Below are positions 3,513-48,522 of a DNA stretch of 48,522 bases, piece by piece; position 1 is the first letter of the stretch; each line of letters starts with the position of its first letter. The position numbers and the translations under genes were made by a program. The notes beneath the pieces were generated by a model. The model was not told the DNA's origin. It searched no databases and worked only from the letters and a program-made list of their open reading frames with translations. The DNA lies in assembly GCA_913776965.1 (NCBI GenBank), contig CAJYQL010000016.1:1-48522 (forward strand). The letters run 5' to 3'. The stretch is from an uncultured Xylophilus sp. (lineage in GTDB: Bacteria > Pseudomonadota > Gammaproteobacteria > Burkholderiales > Burkholderiaceae_C).

Positions 3513-4280
3513 CTAAGCTTTGTGTGCCGATGTGTCGCGTACCGGCCGGGTGCGGCGCATCGCGGTGAAGGCGGCGAACTCCCAGTTGCGCATCGCCAGC
3601 ACCAGGGTGTAGGCCTCGCGCTCGGATTCGGCGAGCTTCTGGTCGGCCAGATGCTGCTGCGCGAAGTCCTGGGCCACCCGTCGCAGCCGCTCCAGGAACA
3701 CCGGCGCCAGTGCGCGGCTGACCCGGCCGTGCACCAGCAGCATGCCTTCGCCCGCACCGTCGAAGCCGCCGCCGAAGTAGTCGAGCAGGGCGTTCTCGCG
3801 GAAGTACTCCATCACCGGCCCGTTCGGCCGCCAGCGGAAGGTCTTGGCCAGCTTCAGCCGGTAGCGGTTGCCCGGCCGCAGCTCGATGATGCCGAGCCGG
3901 TCGAGCTGCGCCAGCGCCCGCACGCCCTCGGCTTCGGTGATGCGGTAGGCGGTGGTCACCTGCTCCAGCGTCCACTGGCTGAGCACGCAGATCGCCATCA
4001 GCACGAGGATGCGGTCGGCCACCACCGCGCGTTCCTGCTCCAGCGTCAGGCCGTCGGTGAGCGGCTGGGCGTCGGCCACCCGGCGCGCCAGGTCCGCGAA
4101 ATCCAGCCGCAGGACCTGGCAGATCGCGTCGATCCGCGACAGCGGCATGTCGCCGCGCGCCAGCATGCGCTTGACGCTCGACTCGGCCATGCCGAGCGCG
4201 CGCGCCAGGTCGGCATAGGTCATGCGGGCAGATTTCAGTTCCTGCTTGAGGGCGACGACGAGATCGGCGGTGGTGCTCAT
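3513..4280 (-). CDS. XRE-family transcriptional regulator
   Basis: 255 aa. The N-terminal Cro/C1-type helix-turn-helix spans residues ~15-60 (YADLARALGMAESSVKRMLARGD, given here as its recognisable parts YADLARALGM and SSVKRML). The long C-terminal domain is not one I recognise; it includes a possible second winged helix (LEQVTTAYRITEAEGVRAL region) and an aromatic block (LLDYFGGGFDGAGEGMLLVHG region). The ATG at 4280 is preferred because it starts the HTH domain. It has no Shine-Dalgarno sequence; instead a perfect palindrome (4282-4300) ends one nucleotide before it. The gene is divergent from the ceramidase-like gene, so it may control itself and that operon. Confidence 0.85.
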   Translation of the reverse strand: MSTTADLVVALKQELKSARMTYADLARALGMAESSVKRMLARGDMPLSRIDAICQVLRLDFADLARRVADAQPLTDGLTLEQERAVVADRILVLMAICVLSQWTLEQVTTAYRITEAEGVRALAQLDRLGIIELRPGNRYRLKLAKTFRWRPNGPVMEYFRENALLDYFGGGFDGAGEGMLLVHGRVSRALAPVFLERLRRVAQDFAQQHLADQKLAESEREAYTLVLAMRNWEFAAFTAMRRTRPVRDTSAHKA

Positions 4281-4281
4281 G

Positions 4282-4300
4282 GGTATCGATTGTCGATACC
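4282..4300. promoter_or_regulatory. Perfect palindrome, candidate operator of the XRE regulator
   Basis: GGTATCGA-TTG-TCGATACC: 8-bp arms, no mismatch, 3-nt spacer. It ends one base before the start codon of the XRE gene and lies in the 117-nt divergent region shared with the ceramidase-like gene. Its length and dyad symmetry fit an XRE dimer site. Occupancy here would block initiation or translation of the regulator gene, giving autoregulation (inference). Confidence 0.6.
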
Positions 4301-4397
4301 GCGGGCCTGCCCGTGCGCTGCCGGGACGATTTTTCGCCACCTTCGGACCGGCTGGCCCGGAGACTGCGGGCCTGTCTCACTGCTGCCGTCTGCCGCC

Positions 4398-5306
4398 ATG
4401 CACCCTGTCCACCCGACCCCCCTCCGTCCGCCGCGCGCCCACCGGGCCGAGGTGGCCCTGCTGATCGCCGGCATCGCGCTGCTGCTGTTCGCCGTCGGCG
4501 GGCCGGTGCTGCACGACAGCATGCACCAGCACCATTTCGCCGACAGCCGGACGGTCGGGGGCATCCCCTGCGCGTTCGACGTGCTGAGCAACCTGCCGTT
4601 CGCCGTTGCAGGGTTCTGGGGCCTGGGCCGGCTGCGGCAACTGCGGGGCCGTGCGGCGCACGATGCGCTCGACCGTGGTCTGGCGGCATTGTTCTGTGCC
4701 GGTTTGGTCGCGACGGCCGCCGGCTCGGCGTACTACCACCTGCGGCCCGACGCCGCCGGCCTGTTCTGGGACCGGCTCGGCATGGTGCTGCCCTTCGCCG
4801 GTCTGCTCGGGCTGGCCGCGGCCGGCCGGGTCGGCGACCGTGCGGGCCGGTGGACAGCCGCCACCGTGCTTGTCGGCGGCCTGCTGGCGGTGCTGTGGTG
4901 GCGCCAGACCGGCGACGTGCGCGGCTGGGCGGCGGTGCAGCTCGGCGGCATGGCGGTGGTCGCGGGCCTCGCGCTGCTGCCGCGGCGCGCCGGACGCCTG
5001 GGTATCCACCTGGGCGCAGTGATCGCCTGCTACGCCGTGGCCAAGGGCTTCGAACTCGCCGACCATGCGGTGTGGCTGGCCAGCCTCGGGGCGGTCTCGG
5101 GCCACACCCTCAAGCACCTGGCCGCGGCCGCTGCGGCGGTGCCGGTGGTGCTGGCGCTCGGACGCCACACGGCCGATGGCCCCCCGACCGCGGCCGGGCA
5201 GAATGGCGCCGGTCGCGGGCCGGGCATCGTGTCCGCACGCAGCTTGCGGCCGGTGCGGAGCGCCGCCGGCACCACCCGCCCCGCCCCCCGGAGGACCCGC
5301 GCATGA
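4398..5306 (+). CDS. Ceramidase-like (alkaline phytoceramidase family) membrane hydrolase
   Basis: 302 aa with about seven hydrophobic segments. It shows the CREST/alkaline-ceramidase arrangement of conserved polar residues within membrane helices: HHFADSR and DVLSNLPF near the N-terminus, GSAYYHLRPD with a nearby WDRLGMVLPF, and a C-terminal SGHTLKH. In the superfamily these Ser/Asp/His residues build a zinc site for amide hydrolysis in a lipid substrate; bacterial substrates are mostly unknown. The last ~45 residues are low-complexity Pro/Arg-rich. Its stop overlaps the next start (ATGA at 5303-5306), so it is translationally coupled to the LplT-PlsC gene. It is divergent from the XRE regulator. 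Confidence 0.72.
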   Translation: MHPVHPTPLRPPRAHRAEVALLIAGIALLLFAVGGPVLHDSMHQHHFADSRTVGGIPCAFDVLSNLPFAVAGFWGLGRLRQLRGRAAHDALDRGLAALFCAGLVATAAGSAYYHLRPDAAGLFWDRLGMVLPFAGLLGLAAAGRVGDRAGRWTAATVLVGGLLAVLWWRQTGDVRGWAAVQLGGMAVVAGLALLPRRAGRLGIHLGAVIACYAVAKGFELADHAVWLASLGAVSGHTLKHLAAAAAAVPVVLALGRHTADGPPTAAGQNGAGRGPGIVSARSLRPVRSAAGTTRPAPRRTRA

Positions 5307-7279
5307 CACCCGATCCCACCCCCACCACCCGTCCCGCCGCGCAGGCCGCCGACGCACCGGCCGCCGACGGCGCGCACGCCGGCCAGTTCGCGCTGCTCGG
5401 CCAGCGCCGCTTCGCGCCCTTCTTCTGGACCCAGTTCGCCGGCGCGGCCAACGACAACCTGTTCAAGTTCGCCTTCACCGTGATGGTGACCTACCAGCTC
5501 AGCGTGTCCTGGATGCCACCGGCGATGGCCGGGCTCGTGATCGGCGCGCTGTTCATCCTGCCGTTCCTGCTGTTCTCGGCGACCGCCGGCCAGCTGGCCG
5601 ACAAGTACGACAAGACCCGCCTGATCCGCTTCGTGAAGACGCTGGAGATCGCGATCATGGCCATCGCCGCCGTCGGCTTCGTCGTCGGCAGCGCGGCGGT
5701 GCTGCTGGCCTGCACCTTCCTGATGGGGCTGCATTCCACCCTCTTCGGACCGGTCAAGTTCGCCTACCTGCCGCAGGTGCTGCGGCCGCAGGAACTCACC
5801 GGCGGCAACGGCATGGTCGAGATGGGCACCTTCGTCGCGATTCTGCTCGGCAACGTGGCCGGCGGCCTGCTGGTGGCGATTCCCGAGGTCGGGCACGGCT
5901 GGGTGGCCGCGGCCTGCGTGGCGCTGGCGCTCGCCGGCCGCGCGGTCGCGCAGCGCATCCCGGATGCGCCGGCGACCGACCCCGGCCTGCGCATCAACTG
6001 GAACCCGTTCACCGAGACCTGGCGCAGCCTGAAGCTCGCGCACGGCAACACGGTGGTGTTCCGCTCGCTGCTCGGCATCAGCTGGATGTGGTTCTTCGGC
6101 GCGGTGTTCCTGAGCCAGTTCCCCAGCTTCGCGAAGGACGTGCTGCACGGCGACGAACGGGTCGCCTCGCTGCTGCTGGTGGTGTTCTCGGTCGGCATCG
6201 GCACCGGCGCGCTGCTGTGCGAGGTGCTGAGCCGCCGGCAGGTGGAGATCGGGCTGGTGCCGCTCGGCGCGATCGGCATGAGCGTGTTCGCGATCGACCT
6301 GTACTTCGCCTCGCGCGGGCTGCCGGCGGTGCCGACGATGGGGCTGGGCGCCTTCCTGGCGCAGCCGGCGCACTGGCGGGTGATGGCCGACCTGGCGCTG
6401 CTGTCGCTCTTCGCCGGGCTCTACAGCGTGCCGATGTACGCGCTGATCCAGCTGCGCAGCCGGCCGACGCACCGGGCGCGGATCATCGCGGCCAACAACA
6501 TCCTCAACGCGCTGTTCATGATCGGCAGCTCGGTCATCGCCGGCGCGTTGCTGGCGGCGGGTGCCAGCGTGCCGCAGATCTTCCTGCTCACCGGCATCGC
6601 CAACGCGCTGGTGGCCGGCTACATCTTCCTGCTGGTGCCGGAATACCTGCTGCGCTTCCTGGCCTGGACGGTGTCGAACCTCGTCTACCGCTTCCGCATC
6701 ACCGGTGCCGAGCAGATCCCGGCCGACGGCCCGGCGCTGCTGGTGTGCAACCACGTGAGCTTCATGGACCCGGTGCTGCTGATGGGCGCCAGCCCGCGGC
6801 CGATCCATTTCGTGATGGACCACCGGATCTTCGCCACGCCGGGCCTGGGCGCGGTGTTCCGGCTGGCCAAGGCGATCCCGGTGGCGCCGCAGAAGGAAGA
6901 TCCGGCGATCTACGAGGCCGCCTTCGCCCGCGCCGCACAGGTGCTGCGCGACGGCGACCTGCTGGCGATCTTCCCGGAAGGGGCGATCACCACCGACGGC
7001 GAACTGCAGGCGTTCAAGGGCGGCGTCGCGAAGATCCTGGCGCAGGCCGAGGCCGACGGCCTGCAGGTGCCGGTGGTGCCGATGGCGCTGACCAACCTGT
7101 GGGGCTCGTTCTTCAGCCGGATCGAATTGCGTGGCGGCAAGCGGCGCGCGATGGTCAAGCCCTTCCGGCGCGGCTGGTTCAACCCGGTGGGGCTGCACGT
7201 CGGCGCGCCGGTGCCGGCGGCCGAGGCGCAGCCGGAGGCGCTGCGGGCGCGGGTGGCCGAGCTGCGGCGGCAGGGCTGA
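5303..7279 (+). CDS. LplT-PlsC fusion: lysophospholipid transporter plus 1-acylglycerol-3-phosphate acyltransferase
   Basis: 658 aa. Residues ~30-430 are an MFS transporter of LplT type (FWTQFAGAANDNLFKF, then GQLADKYDKTRLIRFVK). Residues ~460-650 are a PlsC acyltransferase with the catalytic HX4D motif (N483-H484-VSFM-D489) and F557-P-E-G560. The combination resembles Aas/LplT systems, which flip lysophospholipid across the inner membrane and reacylate it, but the acyl-ACP synthetase domain of Aas is absent. Start at 5303 overlaps the ceramidase-like gene by 4 nt. Likely role: recycling lyso-lipids at the inner membrane. The domain assignment is secure; the substrate is inferred. Confidence 0.88.
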   Translation: MTPDPTPTTRPAAQAADAPAADGAHAGQFALLGQRRFAPFFWTQFAGAANDNLFKFAFTVMVTYQLSVSWMPPAMAGLVIGALFILPFLLFSATAGQLADKYDKTRLIRFVKTLEIAIMAIAAVGFVVGSAAVLLACTFLMGLHSTLFGPVKFAYLPQVLRPQELTGGNGMVEMGTFVAILLGNVAGGLLVAIPEVGHGWVAAACVALALAGRAVAQRIPDAPATDPGLRINWNPFTETWRSLKLAHGNTVVFRSLLGISWMWFFGAVFLSQFPSFAKDVLHGDERVASLLLVVFSVGIGTGALLCEVLSRRQVEIGLVPLGAIGMSVFAIDLYFASRGLPAVPTMGLGAFLAQPAHWRVMADLALLSLFAGLYSVPMYALIQLRSRPTHRARIIAANNILNALFMIGSSVIAGALLAAGASVPQIFLLTGIANALVAGYIFLLVPEYLLRFLAWTVSNLVYRFRITGAEQIPADGPALLVCNHVSFMDPVLLMGASPRPIHFVMDHRIFATPGLGAVFRLAKAIPVAPQKEDPAIYEAAFARAAQVLRDGDLLAIFPEGAITTDGELQAFKGGVAKILAQAEADGLQVPVVPMALTNLWGSFFSRIELRGGKRRAMVKPFRRGWFNPVGLHVGAPVPAAEAQPEALRARVAELRRQG

Positions 7280-44173: not shown

Positions 44174-44572
44174 ATGCGTCACGGACACGGACTCCGCAAA
44201 CTCAACCGCACCAGCTCGCACCGCCTCGCGATGCTGCAGAACATGATGAATTCGCTGATCGAGCACGAGGTCATCAAGACCACGGTGCCGAAGGCGAAGG
44301 AACTGCGCCGCGTCATCGAACCGATGATCACGCTGGCCAAGGAAGACACGCTGGCGAACCGCCGTCTGGCGTTCAACCGCCTGCGCGACCGTGACAGCGT
44401 CACCAAGCTGTTCAACGTGCTCGGCCCGCTGTCGAAGGCGCGTCCGGGCGGCTACACCCGCATCCTGAAGATGGGCTTCCGTGTGGGCGACAACGCTCCG
44501 ATGGCGCTCGTCGAGCTGGTCGATCGTCCGGCTGCAGAAGAAAATGCAGCAGACGGCGCCAAGAGCGAATAA
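44174..44572 (+). CDS. rplQ: 50S ribosomal protein L17
   Basis: 132 aa. [20 protein letters not shown] and the signature block [20 protein letters not shown] are canonical. The acidic tail ([13 protein letters not shown]) is typical of beta-proteobacterial L17. AAGGAAAG ribosome site. Last protein gene of the supercluster. Confidence 0.98.
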
Positions 44573-44595: not shown

Positions 44596-44672
<77 letters not shown>

Positions 44673-44693: not shown

Positions 44694-44724
44694 AAAGCGC
44701 CCCTGGAAACAGGGGCGCTTTTTT
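44694..44724 (+). terminator. Strong intrinsic terminator after tRNA-fMet
   Basis: Stem AAAGCGCCCCTG/CAGGGGCGCTTT with a GAAA tetraloop, merging into TTTTTT. It ends the ribosomal/tRNA transcription unit and separates it from the unknown genes downstream. Confidence 0.9.
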
Positions 44725-44813
44725 GTTTGGATGGTCGCCAGAAGGTCCGCAGATCGGGATGGATTCGACAGCGGGGTCCGCTACAGTCGGAATCTCTGCG
44801 CGCTGCGACCGGC

Positions 44814-45533
44814 ATGTCCAACCCTCCCTCCCTTCTTGCGATTGAGCCGGCCGAAGCCGATGCGCCTCACCAGATCGGAAGGCAGGCGCTTGCGATCCTG
44901 CGTCGCGGGATACGGTCTGTCCGGCTCGGATGGTCGCCACGGGGCGAAGCGACGGCGCCGCCTCTGGAGGGTGCGGAAGACGGCATGATCGGCCGCTCCC
45001 TGTCGTTCTGGCGGGCGGAAGATGCCGAACGGTATCTGCGGGGCTGGCGGGGCGACGTGGTGGCGATGCACCAGCTCCGCAGCGTGCTCGCACGCACGCA
45101 GGGCCGACGCCACCTGCTGTCCTGGAGCGATGACCAGGTACTGCGCGCCCTTGCGGCGCAACTCGCGTCCGGCACGCTCAGTGTGACCGACGCGCGCGCG
45201 GACGCGAGCCCCGCGCGGACCATCGAACTGCCGATCGTCGTCGCTGCGGCGGCCGCTCCGACCGCACCGGTCGCGGTAGCGCACACCGAGCCGGTCATGC
45301 GGCCCAGTGCGATCTCGGCATTGCCGCTGCTGCCGATTCTGGAAGAGGTGCAGATCGAAGGCGCCGACGTGCTGCCCGAAATCCTGCAGTCCCTCGAACA
45401 GGTGGCCTTGACGCTGGACAACATCGATTTGGCGTCGGTCTCGCTGGAGCCCACCCCCTCCGGTGTGCCGGCCATCGCGACGGCGATCGGCGATGCGGGC
45501 AGCGGCATCGCGGCCGCACTCGCCGCGCTCTGA
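44814..45533 (+). CDS. Unrecognised 239-aa protein
   Basis: I do not recognise a family. The N-terminal ~120 residues are compact (ALAILRRGIRSVRLGWSPRG, SLSFWRAEDAERYLRGWRGD) and end in a short helical module, LSWSDDQVLRALAAQLASGT-LSV. Similar 'W/D-D-xVLxxLAxxLAxGxLxV' modules occur in proteins beside secretion-system spikes, but that link is weak. The rest is Ala/Val/Pro-rich, then amphipathic (ILEEVQIEGADVLPEILQSL). No signal peptide. ATG 44814 has no Shine-Dalgarno sequence; TTG 44727 would lie against the terminator. Thirty nt precede the giant coiled-coil gene, so the two are probably one operon. Confidence 0.65.
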   Translation: MSNPPSLLAIEPAEADAPHQIGRQALAILRRGIRSVRLGWSPRGEATAPPLEGAEDGMIGRSLSFWRAEDAERYLRGWRGDVVAMHQLRSVLARTQGRRHLLSWSDDQVLRALAAQLASGTLSVTDARADASPARTIELPIVVAAAAAPTAPVAVAHTEPVMRPSAISALPLLPILEEVQIEGADVLPEILQSLEQVALTLDNIDLASVSLEPTPSGVPAIATAIGDAGSGIAAALAAL

Positions 45534-45563: not shown

Positions 45564-48522
45564 ATGCTGTTCGTCACCAAAGCCAGCACCGCCATCCGCG
45601 AAGGGGCCGAACGGGTAGCCGCGGCCGTCACGACCGCATCGGCGACGCTGCAGACCGAGCTGACCCAGGCGATCGCCGACGCGGGCACCACGGTGTCCGA
45701 GGTGTCGACCCAGTTGCAGGCGGCGGCCGCCAAGGTCGCCTCCACCGCACCGCCGATCGATCCGGCGGCGCTGGCCGGCGCATTGCCGGCTGCACTGGCG
45801 ACGCTGCAGTCCGATCTGACGGCAGTGACGAGCGACGCGGCGGCGCTGCCCGCGCGCCTGACCGCCATCGGTGCCCAGGCGGGCGAAGTCGCCGGTGCGG
45901 TGGCTTCGCTGGTGAGCAGCGTCGGCACGGTACCGGGGCGGTTGGCGACGATTCGTCCGGCGGTCGACGGTTTTCCGGCCCGCATCGCCGCCATCGCGAG
46001 CCGTGCCGACCGGCTGGCAGTGCCGCCCGCGGCTTCGCTTGCCGACCCGATGGCCTGGCGCAAGGACGTGATGGCGGTCGCCGACGGGCTGAAGGCGGAC
46101 TTGACCTCGATCCGGGGAGAGGTTCGTACCGTCTTCGACGGCCTGATGGCCCAGGCCGAAGGCGTGGTGCGGCCGGTCATGACCGGAATCGATGCCATCA
46201 CCGCCAGGGCCGATGCCGTGATCGCGGCGGTCGGCCAGGAGGCCGATGCGATCGTCGGCCAGGGCGATCTGCTGCAGCGGCGCACGCACGATGCAGCCGT
46301 GCTGGTCGCCACACCCCTCGCCGCGGTGGAGCTCGCGTTCGACACCACCGCGCAGCGGATCGAGGAGGTCGGCGTCGCCGTCGATACCGCGCTGGCGGGG
46401 GTAGAGACCGCGATCGGCCATCTCGACGCCAGCATCGCTAAGATCAACGGCGTGATCGACCAGTGCGTCGCCGAAGTCGACCGGTCGATCGACGAGATGA
46501 AGACTGCGCTCGGCGAGATCATGGCCGAGATCGACGCGCTGATCGCGCAGTTGCGCCAGTTGCCGGACCGGTTCGATCCGGTCCGTGCGCGCATCGACCA
46601 GGCGCGGGCGACGATCGAGGAGATCCGCGCGCGCGTCGTGTCGTTCATGGAGCGTGCGGACCGGGCACTGGCCTTGGCGAGCGATGAACTCGACCAGGCC
46701 GACGTGCGGTGCGACAACGCGATCGCGGTCTGCACCCGCTACATCTCGCGCGCGCCGGCGCTGGCGATTGCGCGCGCGCTGTTCGTCGGGGTCAAGGGCA
46801 TGATCCCCGGCATCCAGACCACGATCACCGCCGCGCGGACGACAGTCAAGAGGGCGGGCGATACGGCCCTGCATCTGCTCGACCAGGCCGTCGCCATCGT
46901 CGAGCAGCTGCGCGCGGCACTGGACGCCGCAATCGCGCAGGTGCGCGCGGCGATCGAACGGGTGGTCCAGGTCCTGCAGACGGTTCGCGAGGGCCTGGTC
47001 GCGGCACAGGCGCAGATGACCCGCGCCAGCGAGGCGATGCATACGGCGGCCGAGGCGGTCAAGCGCCGGCCGCCGGCGCTGGTGGCCCAGGTGCGCGCCG
47101 GCCGCGATCTGTTCGTCACCACCGTGCAGCCGCGAGAAAAGGTCTCGCTGGTGGCGGCGCAGGTACTCGCCGCCAAGCTGGCCGCGGTGCAGCCGGTGCG
47201 CCAGCAGATCGGTAGCGCAGAAGCGCGGGTGGTCCAGGGCATTCAGGAGGTCCAGGTCCGTATGCGGGTGCCGATGGACAAGGTGCGGAGCACGCTGGCG
47301 CCGGTGCGTGCCCAGGTCGACGCGCTGAAACTGCAGCTGGAGCGGCCGCTGACCGAACTGCGGGCGCTGTTCGCCCGGGGCGAGGCCGCGTTCGACGACC
47401 TGCTCGTCCAGGCCAGGACGAAGCTGGACGGCCTGCTGCCCGGCGGCGCCGCGACGCCGCCGCCGGCCTGGCTGACCGAACTCCGGGCCCTTGCGGCCGA
47501 TCTGCAAACCAGCGCGCAGCAGGCCGCGGCGGCAGGACAGGCCCTCGCCGCCGACCTGCAGGCCGGCCATGCGCGCATCGCGGCGGCCATCCAGCAAACC
47601 CAGGCCGGACTGCAGCAGACGGCCGGACCGCTGGCAGCGCTGCAGCAGGAGATCCTTGCGGCCGTGCAGGCCGCGGGCCAGCCGGCGCGGGACCGGCTGG
47701 CGTCCCTGCTCGGCCTAGCGGCCGCCGCCGAGCCGATCCGGCTGCAGGCCGAGGCGGCGAAGGCGGAGGCCGCCTCGCATGGCCAGCAGGCCCAAGCCGC
47801 AGCCGAGACGCAGCGCGACCGGATCGACGCGGCTCGGGCGGAGCTCGATGCCGTGCTGGACGACATGCGGGCCGCGATCACGCCGCCGCAGGACGAGGCG
47901 GAGAAGGCCCGGGCCCAGCTGGAAGCGCCGCTGGCCGCGGTCGAGCGCGAGAACGCGGCGCTCGAGGCGGAGACCCGCCAGGTGACGGAGCGGCTCCACC
48001 AGGACACCGCCGACGCCGAACGGGCCGTGACCGCGCGCCGCGACCAGGCACAGGCCGGGATCGATGCGGCCGTGGCCGAGGTGATCGCGTTACGCACGCA
48101 GACCGAGGTCGCACGGGCCGACGTTGTCAGTGCCGAAACGGTCGTGGCCGCGGAAGTGGCCAAGCATGGCGGTTCACAGGCGTCCGAGGGCGGAGATGCT
48201 GAGAAGGCATCTGGATCGGACGCTGGATCGGGCGGGGGCGCTGCAGAGTCGCAGGCGTCGGGGGGAACATCGCCAGATGCCGCGCAGGGCGGGGCGGACG
48301 GAGGGCCGGAGGGGGAGGGAGGCGGCACTGTTGCCGCGCCGGCGGCCAGGGACAGCGATGCTGCACAAGACGGTGCGGCGCCCGAACTCGACGGCACCAC
48401 GGATGGCGCTGCAGCCGCGCCGCCGCCGGGTGAGACCGACGCGGCGGCGACCGGCGAGGGCGCATCCGCGACCGGAGAGACGCACGAAGGTGATCTGGCA
48501 ACCTCCGGCGGCGCTAGCGCTG
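45564..48522 (+). CDS. Giant Ala-rich coiled-coil protein, 3' end outside window
   Basis: 986 codons without a stop up to the window edge, so the protein is partial. Residues 1-~865 are almost entirely Ala/Gln/Arg/Asp/Glu helices in repeating 'xxIDxARAxLDxV' style (e.g. IDQARATIEEIRARVVSF, IEQ/VEQLRAALDAAIAQVRAA), with short Pro breaks (GLLPGGAATPPPAWLTEL near residue 625). Residues ~868-986 are a disordered Gly/Ala/Asp/Glu/Ser linker. No signal peptide, no membrane segment, only three Cys. Such a rod plus linker often carries a C-terminal effector, enzymatic or anchoring domain, which would be past the window. Translation of all 986 codons was followed by eye. Confidence 0.75.
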   Translation, partial: MLFVTKASTAIREGAERVAAAVTTASATLQTELTQAIADAGTTVSEVSTQLQAAAAKVASTAPPIDPAALAGALPAALATLQSDLTAVTSDAAALPARLTAIGAQAGEVAGAVASLVSSVGTVPGRLATIRPAVDGFPARIAAIASRADRLAVPPAASLADPMAWRKDVMAVADGLKADLTSIRGEVRTVFDGLMAQAEGVVRPVMTGIDAITARADAVIAAVGQEADAIVGQGDLLQRRTHDAAVLVATPLAAVELAFDTTAQRIEEVGVAVDTALAGVETAIGHLDASIAKINGVIDQCVAEVDRSIDEMKTALGEIMAEIDALIAQLRQLPDRFDPVRARIDQARATIEEIRARVVSFMERADRALALASDELDQADVRCDNAIAVCTRYISRAPALAIARALFVGVKGMIPGIQTTITAARTTVKRAGDTALHLLDQAVAIVEQLRAALDAAIAQVRAAIERVVQVLQTVREGLVAAQAQMTRASEAMHTAAEAVKRRPPALVAQVRAGRDLFVTTVQPREKVSLVAAQVLAAKLAAVQPVRQQIGSAEARVVQGIQEVQVRMRVPMDKVRSTLAPVRAQVDALKLQLERPLTELRALFARGEAAFDDLLVQARTKLDGLLPGGAATPPPAWLTELRALAADLQTSAQQAAAAGQALAADLQAGHARIAAAIQQTQAGLQQTAGPLAALQQEILAAVQAAGQPARDRLASLLGLAAAAEPIRLQAEAAKAEAASHGQQAQAAAETQRDRIDAARAELDAVLDDMRAAITPPQDEAEKARAQLEAPLAAVERENAALEAETRQVTERLHQDTADAERAVTARRDQAQAGIDAAVAEVIALRTQTEVARADVVSAETVVAAEVAKHGGSQASEGGDAEKASGSDAGSGGGAAESQASGGTSPDAAQGGADGGPEGEGGGTVAAPAARDSDAAQDGAAPELDGTTDGAAAAPPPGETDAAATGEGASATGETHEGDLATSGGASA

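Follow-up and report, generated by a model that had tools for sequence, protein, structure and literature searches.

The stretch of DNA analysed here, which we call the window, is an entire contig of an uncultured Xylophilus sp. (CAJYQL010000016.1, our G000:C16; 48,522 bases), near the end of which rplQ (44174-44572) and a tRNA-Met gene are followed by the two genes of interest, a small partner gene and a long gene that is still open at the contig edge (Table 1). An initial annotation had described a tRNA-fMet and its terminator, then a gene for a 239-aa protein and a frame of at least 986 residues running out of the window; all of these could be located, the tRNA as tRNA-Met (CAT) and the terminator as a hairpin with a T-run. 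Comparison with homologues in other genomes makes it very likely that the pair is linked to one particular branch of the type VI secretion system (T6SS), and the best reading is that it constitutes an accessory module of this branch, that of P. phymatum T6SS-b and SecReT6 family i4a.

In the 14 distinct loci that we collected (the window, G068, G155, G184, G234, G236, G181, L031, L032, L033, L034, L036, G358 and G356; the labels are our own, and L029, L030, L035 and L037, being contigs of G068, G155, G234 and G236, were removed as duplicates), the small gene always lies directly upstream of the long gene on the same strand, and in the 11 loci measured the gap between them is -1 to 30 bases. 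The small gene, which the initial annotation had called an orphan partner, thus belongs together with the long one. The neighbours of the pair in L031, L032, L034 and L036, as well as tssM in L033, were identified by eye, from the starts of the proteins. Two loci are irregular: the N-terminal domain of the partner is apparently repeated in G234 (L022:9262-10074; two matches to one query region), and in G181 the long gene is spread over two overlapping frames (L023:1921-3987 and 3866-5572), which may reflect either a frameshift or an error in the assembly.

Both genes are absent from all six same-genus genomes searched, five of which, read beyond rplQ, have different genes there; a housekeeping role was rejected for this reason. 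Profile search detects the core of the long protein in 7 of 299 family genomes and, at the level of the order, in 3 of 399, each count including the window genome; the latter adds two bearers from two other families. Scanning named genome contigs with a pattern returned nine loci, among them Ramlibacter, Polaromonas and MOLA814, in the last of which the pair stands ahead of tssB; every named bearer belongs to the Burkholderiales or is a betaproteobacterial or unclassified proteobacterial bin. No relative turned up when viral contigs were scanned, and the last 2,959 bases of the window have short, weak matches alone elsewhere in its own genome. Partner matches in G193 (E 6e-5, with an internal stop) and G209 (E 4e-4, within a 7,215-aa frame) were left uncounted since neither genome has the core or TssC, and a match in G024 (E 1.6e-5) did not recur with the 10-row profile. 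Searches of an open-access library, which had no name for the pair to go by, brought up no description of it.

The tie to the T6SS is seen both in gene neighbourhoods and in the distribution of the pair. At five of the 14 loci the pair stands at the end of a T6SS cluster: it follows tssJ-K-L-M-A in G234, where Pfam recognises DotU, VasE/TssK and an ImpA-type TssA upstream; it comes after tssM, tssA and a 636-aa gene in L033; it precedes tssB-tssC-hcp in G236 and G356, with tssB directly after the long gene in both and VipA/TssB and Hcp recognised by Pfam in G236; and in G358 it lies on the opposite strand, about 1.3 kb past tssA. No T6SS genes were seen beside the pair in the stretch read at eight loci, and the fourteenth, G181, on a contig of 5.6 kb, was counted neither for nor against adjacency. 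In the window genome TssC is on a different contig from the pair. The site that the pair occupies in the window, right after rplQ-tRNA-Met, is where the branch T6SS begins in G068 and G184.

TssC is present in 102 of the 299 family genomes, among them all seven bearers of the core. Searching with the TssC of the window genome separates 10 genomes at 69-100% identity from the rest at 56% or less, a clean gap, and the core is found in seven of these 10 branch genomes (TssC at least 69% identical), in none of the 92 other TssC-positive genomes and in none of the 197 TssC-negative ones (hypergeometric p 6.5e-9, and 6.6e-8 once the window genome is removed, values that ignore shared ancestry). On a TssC tree of 37 rows, nine bearers group with three non-bearers in a single 12-member clade (support 100/99), which accounts for all nine bearers placed, the genomes of L031, L032, L034 and L036 standing outside this count; the bearer label requires four changes, and one of 500 shuffles was as low. 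Both bearers that the order-wide search added carry this T6SS next to the pair. The presence and absence that the initial annotation had proposed to compare among relatives, none among the six same-genus genomes searched and seven in the family, all TssC-positive, together with the position at cluster ends, thus bear out its tie to a delivery-type machine.

A separate family of 551-636 aa, a candidate effector family, was seen beside tssA or before tssB in the branch (L033:5122-7029; L075, in G190, after tssA). It has no Pfam or NCBIfam match, as scanned for the L033 copy; further copies lie elsewhere in G068, G155 and G184, and two plasmid copies (L157:7745-9532 and L158:8108-9895) were recognised by eye only.

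Table 1 Features of the pair and its upstream flank in the window
Feature	Position	Strand	Basis
tRNA-Met (CAT)	44596..44672	+	ARAGORN; the pair sits 3' of the tRNA
Hairpin and T-run, terminator-like	about 44696..44726	+	Read directly in the sequence
Small partner gene (P0003), 239 aa	44814..45533	+	A homologue immediately 5' of the long gene in 14/14 loci
Partner N-terminal alpha/beta domain, residues 23-130	44880..45203	+	Model, confident except at about residues 41-60
Partner conserved C-terminal part, residues 170-239, LPILEEVQIEGA...VSLEPTPS	45321..45530	+	Alignments; two predicted helices in the model
Long helical protein, 986 residues, no stop up to the contig end	45564..48521	+	Open reading frame and structure prediction
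Helical part of the long protein, residues 1-870, closing with the conserved AEV-x3-GG	45564..48173	+	Alignment, AlphaFold2
Hydrophobic segment of the long protein, residues 242-263	46287..46352	+	Hydropathy of the window protein and homologue rows
RCDNAIAVCTRY motif of the long protein, residues 382-393	46707..46742	+	Both Cys and the Tyr invariant in 10/10 rows
Low-complexity acidic tail of the long protein, incomplete	48174..48521	+	Composition, AlphaFold2, homologue comparison

For the long protein, an AlphaFold2 model based on a 10-row alignment (pTM 0.37, so that the overall shape is not established and the secondary structure alone was used) places helices at residues 2-59, shorter ones up to 159, and then at 162-393, 398-521, 523-624, 633-717, 719-772 and 776-867, and gives no structure from residue 868 on. 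The Ala-rich rod of about 865 residues in the initial annotation is recovered in helical residues 2-867, but a rod is an idealisation: several, although not all, of the prolines kept in at least six of the 10 rows fall at predicted helix breaks. Its disordered acidic linker of about 120 residues agrees with the unstructured end, the last 121 residues having a net charge of -18 with 26% Ala and 24% Gly. Across 12 proteins the helical part spans 870-961 residues. Given that matches to the core elsewhere have E values between 1.9e-43 and 5.1e-126 and that C383, C390 and Y393, just ahead of a predicted helix break, do not vary, the resemblance goes beyond chance. The hydrophobic segment has a mean hydropathy of 1.42 in the window protein and of 1.87-2.40 in six of nine homologue rows; no 19-residue stretch of the window protein exceeds 1.6.

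Neither protein belongs to a recognisable family, as had been noted at the outset. In Pfam, PHROGs, NCBIfam and PADLOC the long protein gave nothing beyond generic coiled-coil or helical matches, one of which, Baculo_PEP_C, was the sole curated Pfam cut-off it passed; its structural neighbours were uninformative, and no enzymatic domain was recognised in it. The 239-aa protein had no match in the same libraries at the limits used (E up to 1 for Pfam), three of its homologues had none in Pfam (E up to 0.1), and a fold search returned weak hits without a clear match.

The initial annotation had placed a payload at the unseen C-terminus of the long protein. In the 10 homologues with complete 3' ends, AEV-x3-GG or a close variant is followed by a low-complexity tail of 288-811 residues, and most of the complete tails close with a short segment, read by eye, such as LLDMLKQAA, LLATLKEAA, LLEGLKEAL or LLDQLKKAA; the long proteins of G236, G358 and G356 have a different terminal segment. 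A C-terminal domain was recognised in none of these 10, the window's own end lying beyond the contig, and a Pfam scan of seven homologues placed no best stretch inside the tail. These sequences suggest a floppy tail, and not a hidden toxin, at the end of the long protein. That the frame is still open at the contig end would allow for a polymorphic toxin past it, but the tails of the complete homologues, and the fact that no downstream immunity candidate is common to different lineages, render such a payload extremely improbable. Two findings had been named beforehand as jointly speaking against the proposal: closure of the frame without an extra domain is likely by homology, whereas conservation of both genes as housekeeping proteins is false, as the same-genus genomes show. 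Low-complexity tails plausibly break assemblies, and the frame of the window may well be open for this reason; the long gene of L034 is likewise cut at a contig edge within its tail, in a Gly-Ala repeat. Such genes may thus be left cut at contig ends.

When the sequence following the long gene was compared in 11 loci, three of which end inside that gene and one (G234) soon after it, the sole family common to different lineages was a weakly similar LysR regulator, although a lineage-private immunity gene is possible. The close relatives G068, G155 and G184 have flanking genes in common, and so do the two Polaromonas loci. In G068 (L018:13601-16823) and G184 (L020:13062-14985) the long gene is followed immediately by a cassette of small genes; their GC3 is low (about 0.6-0.7), the products of some look hydrophobic by eye, and G155 has no such cassette at the corresponding place.

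As to what the pair does, we lean, tentatively and with a little less than even confidence, towards the small protein being a dedicated partner of an exported or cargo-holding, non-enzymatic long protein. The small protein would hold the long protein and connect it to the apparatus, the long protein would leave with the tube and spike as an elongated non-enzymatic cargo or holder of cargo, and its flexible tail and end segment may serve docking. Because no immunity gene seems to travel with the pair, poisoning of kin bacteria is unlikely, and action in the surroundings of the cell or against non-bacterial targets would fit better. The long protein diverges fast: it is 69% identical between G068 and G155, against 97% for TssC, and 18-47% identical in 33 of 36 genome pairs in which TssC is 73-87% identical. 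Taken together with a partner of its own and with the many loci in which the pair lies away from the cluster, this divergence fits exported cargo somewhat better than a fixed part of the machine. The patchy presence of the pair was counted on the same side, as was an analogy with the H3-T6SS of P. aeruginosa, a related system that, in the available text of two accounts, is thought to export TseF, a substrate with an environmental role classed as having no immunity gene (PMC5379069, PMC11751169).

Several observations weigh against the pair being the partner and exported cargo of this branch. It was not found in three of the 10 branch genomes (G022, G190 and G259, all draft assemblies), where tssB to tssA are largely present, nor do the T6SS regions (48-49 kb each) of three plasmids with TssC 78-81% identical, from P. 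phymatum, Paraburkholderia sp. PGU19 and Cupriavidus sp. P-10, contain the long protein or the partner (lowest profile E value 0.11 among the five plasmid stretches searched); these plasmid systems are placed in the branch by TssC identity and not by a tree. The pair does not behave as a core component, which would be expected in every complete system of the branch. As the three non-bearing genomes do not group together on the TssC tree, the pattern fits an old component lost more than once, although draft assemblies could hide a gene. The correlation between long-protein identity and TssC identity is weak (Spearman 0.36), and 217 of 2000 permutations reached at least this value. T6SS effectors often occur several to a genome, and each of the nine bearer genomes has one match, which together with the narrow length range of the helical part argues for a machine part. 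Much known T6SS cargo is encoded beside a vgrG or PAAR-like gene, which the initial annotation had suggested looking for, and in the loci read the pair is beside neither. What points to the partner being an adaptor is gene order, the fold search having given no clear match.

The main rival of exported cargo is a cytosolic assembly scaffold, in which an unsecreted long protein would organise or tether the baseplate, sheath or an envelope site, with the small protein as its anchor and the tail reaching a partner. We regard this as possible but doubtful. The lack of a recognised enzymatic domain, the limited downstream sharing, the single match per bearer genome, a helical part that varies little in length where complete tails vary greatly, the place at the cluster end in five loci and the absence of a strongly hydrophobic stretch from the window protein all speak for it, whereas it sits poorly with the fast divergence, with the branch genomes that have tssB to tssA without the pair, and with the eight loci lacking T6SS neighbours. 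Those eight loci, and the many genes that related genomes have in common, could also mean that there is no relation to the T6SS and that the association is a by-product of shared ancestry; to this we assign little probability, as none of the six same-genus genomes searched has the pair, this T6SS branch accompanies it in bearers from three families of the order, and at five loci the pair lies at a cluster end.

The remaining alternatives concern the helix itself. It is unlikely that the long protein is a membrane-active helical cargo resembling alpha-pore-forming toxins of the YaxAB, XaxAB or MakA type. A tape-measure-like protein in the tube lumen, setting or filling the tube length, would agree with an Ala-rich extended helix of nearly constant size (865 residues would measure about 130 nm as one straight helix) and with weak hits to tape-measure PHROGs (E 1.2e-5 and 7.6e-4), but an SbcC-like PHROG scores better (E 2.3e-6), other coiled-coil families score about equally, and the 92 TssC-positive family genomes outside the branch manage without such a gene, so that we find it highly improbable. 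We think it very unlikely, too, that in this T6SS branch a helical protein whose length hardly varies runs inside or alongside the tube, held by the partner, filling the lumen or acting as a ruler, with the tail and end segment docking to the spike or baseplate; if true, this would be a device not described for T6SSs in the part of the literature found. The layout of a delivery, tape-measure-like or scaffold protein in the initial annotation is borne out as regards a tie to a delivery machine and lacks support as regards the payload. In the genomes surveyed the pair is found with this branch only, which offers a handle on what the branch does, and the pair bears on whether T6SSs carry elongated non-enzymatic proteins.

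Among known systems, T6SS adaptor-effector pairs, with DUF4123, DUF1795/Eag or DUF2169 adaptors, resemble the pair in having a small gene directly upstream of a large one on the same strand, but here the partner lacks a Pfam match, does not lie beside vgrG in the loci read, and is followed by a protein with no recognised toxin domain. Phage tail tape-measure proteins share the long Ala-rich helix and account for the weak PHROGs matches, whereas no tail module or other phage tail genes were noticed in the gene listings of the loci read and the pair is tied to the T6SS. A T6SS copy on a P. aeruginosa plasmid, which looks like H3-T6SS from its pyoverdine neighbours, has a TssC 69% identical to that of G234 and a YwqK and a DUF4280 gene after vgrG; in the stretch read, profile search found no long protein or partner. 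The available text on H3-T6SS substrates describes TseF as a 178-aa protein with MORN motifs and TepB, with an M91 motif, as a metalloprotease effector (PMC5379069, PMC10442045, PMC11751169).

The closest counterpart is P. phymatum T6SS-b, assigned to SecReT6 family i4a (PMC8356804). Profile search of its 48-kb T6SS region gave no partner or long protein (best E 0.22), and the part of its account available to us mentions no such pair (PMC8356804). Its TssC, however, is 81% identical to that of the bearer G234, and, as in several bearers, it has the tssB-to-tssA cluster order, a YwqK/MORN protein and a DUF4280 PAAR-like protein, along with an amino-acid binding protein, two sodium:dicarboxylate symporters and a racemase, transport genes within the cluster that the same partial text already reports (PMC8356804). 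In the branch clusters that we read (L038, L040, L055-L056, L059, L065-L070, L111, L149 and L150-L151), an SBP_bac_3 binding protein and SDF symporters, in several cases with an Asp/Glu racemase, lie between the PAAR-like gene and tssJ; these genes were not seen in G236 and G181. The T6SS-b/i4a branch, with which the pair is associated, is unusual in carrying amino-acid and dicarboxylate transport genes.
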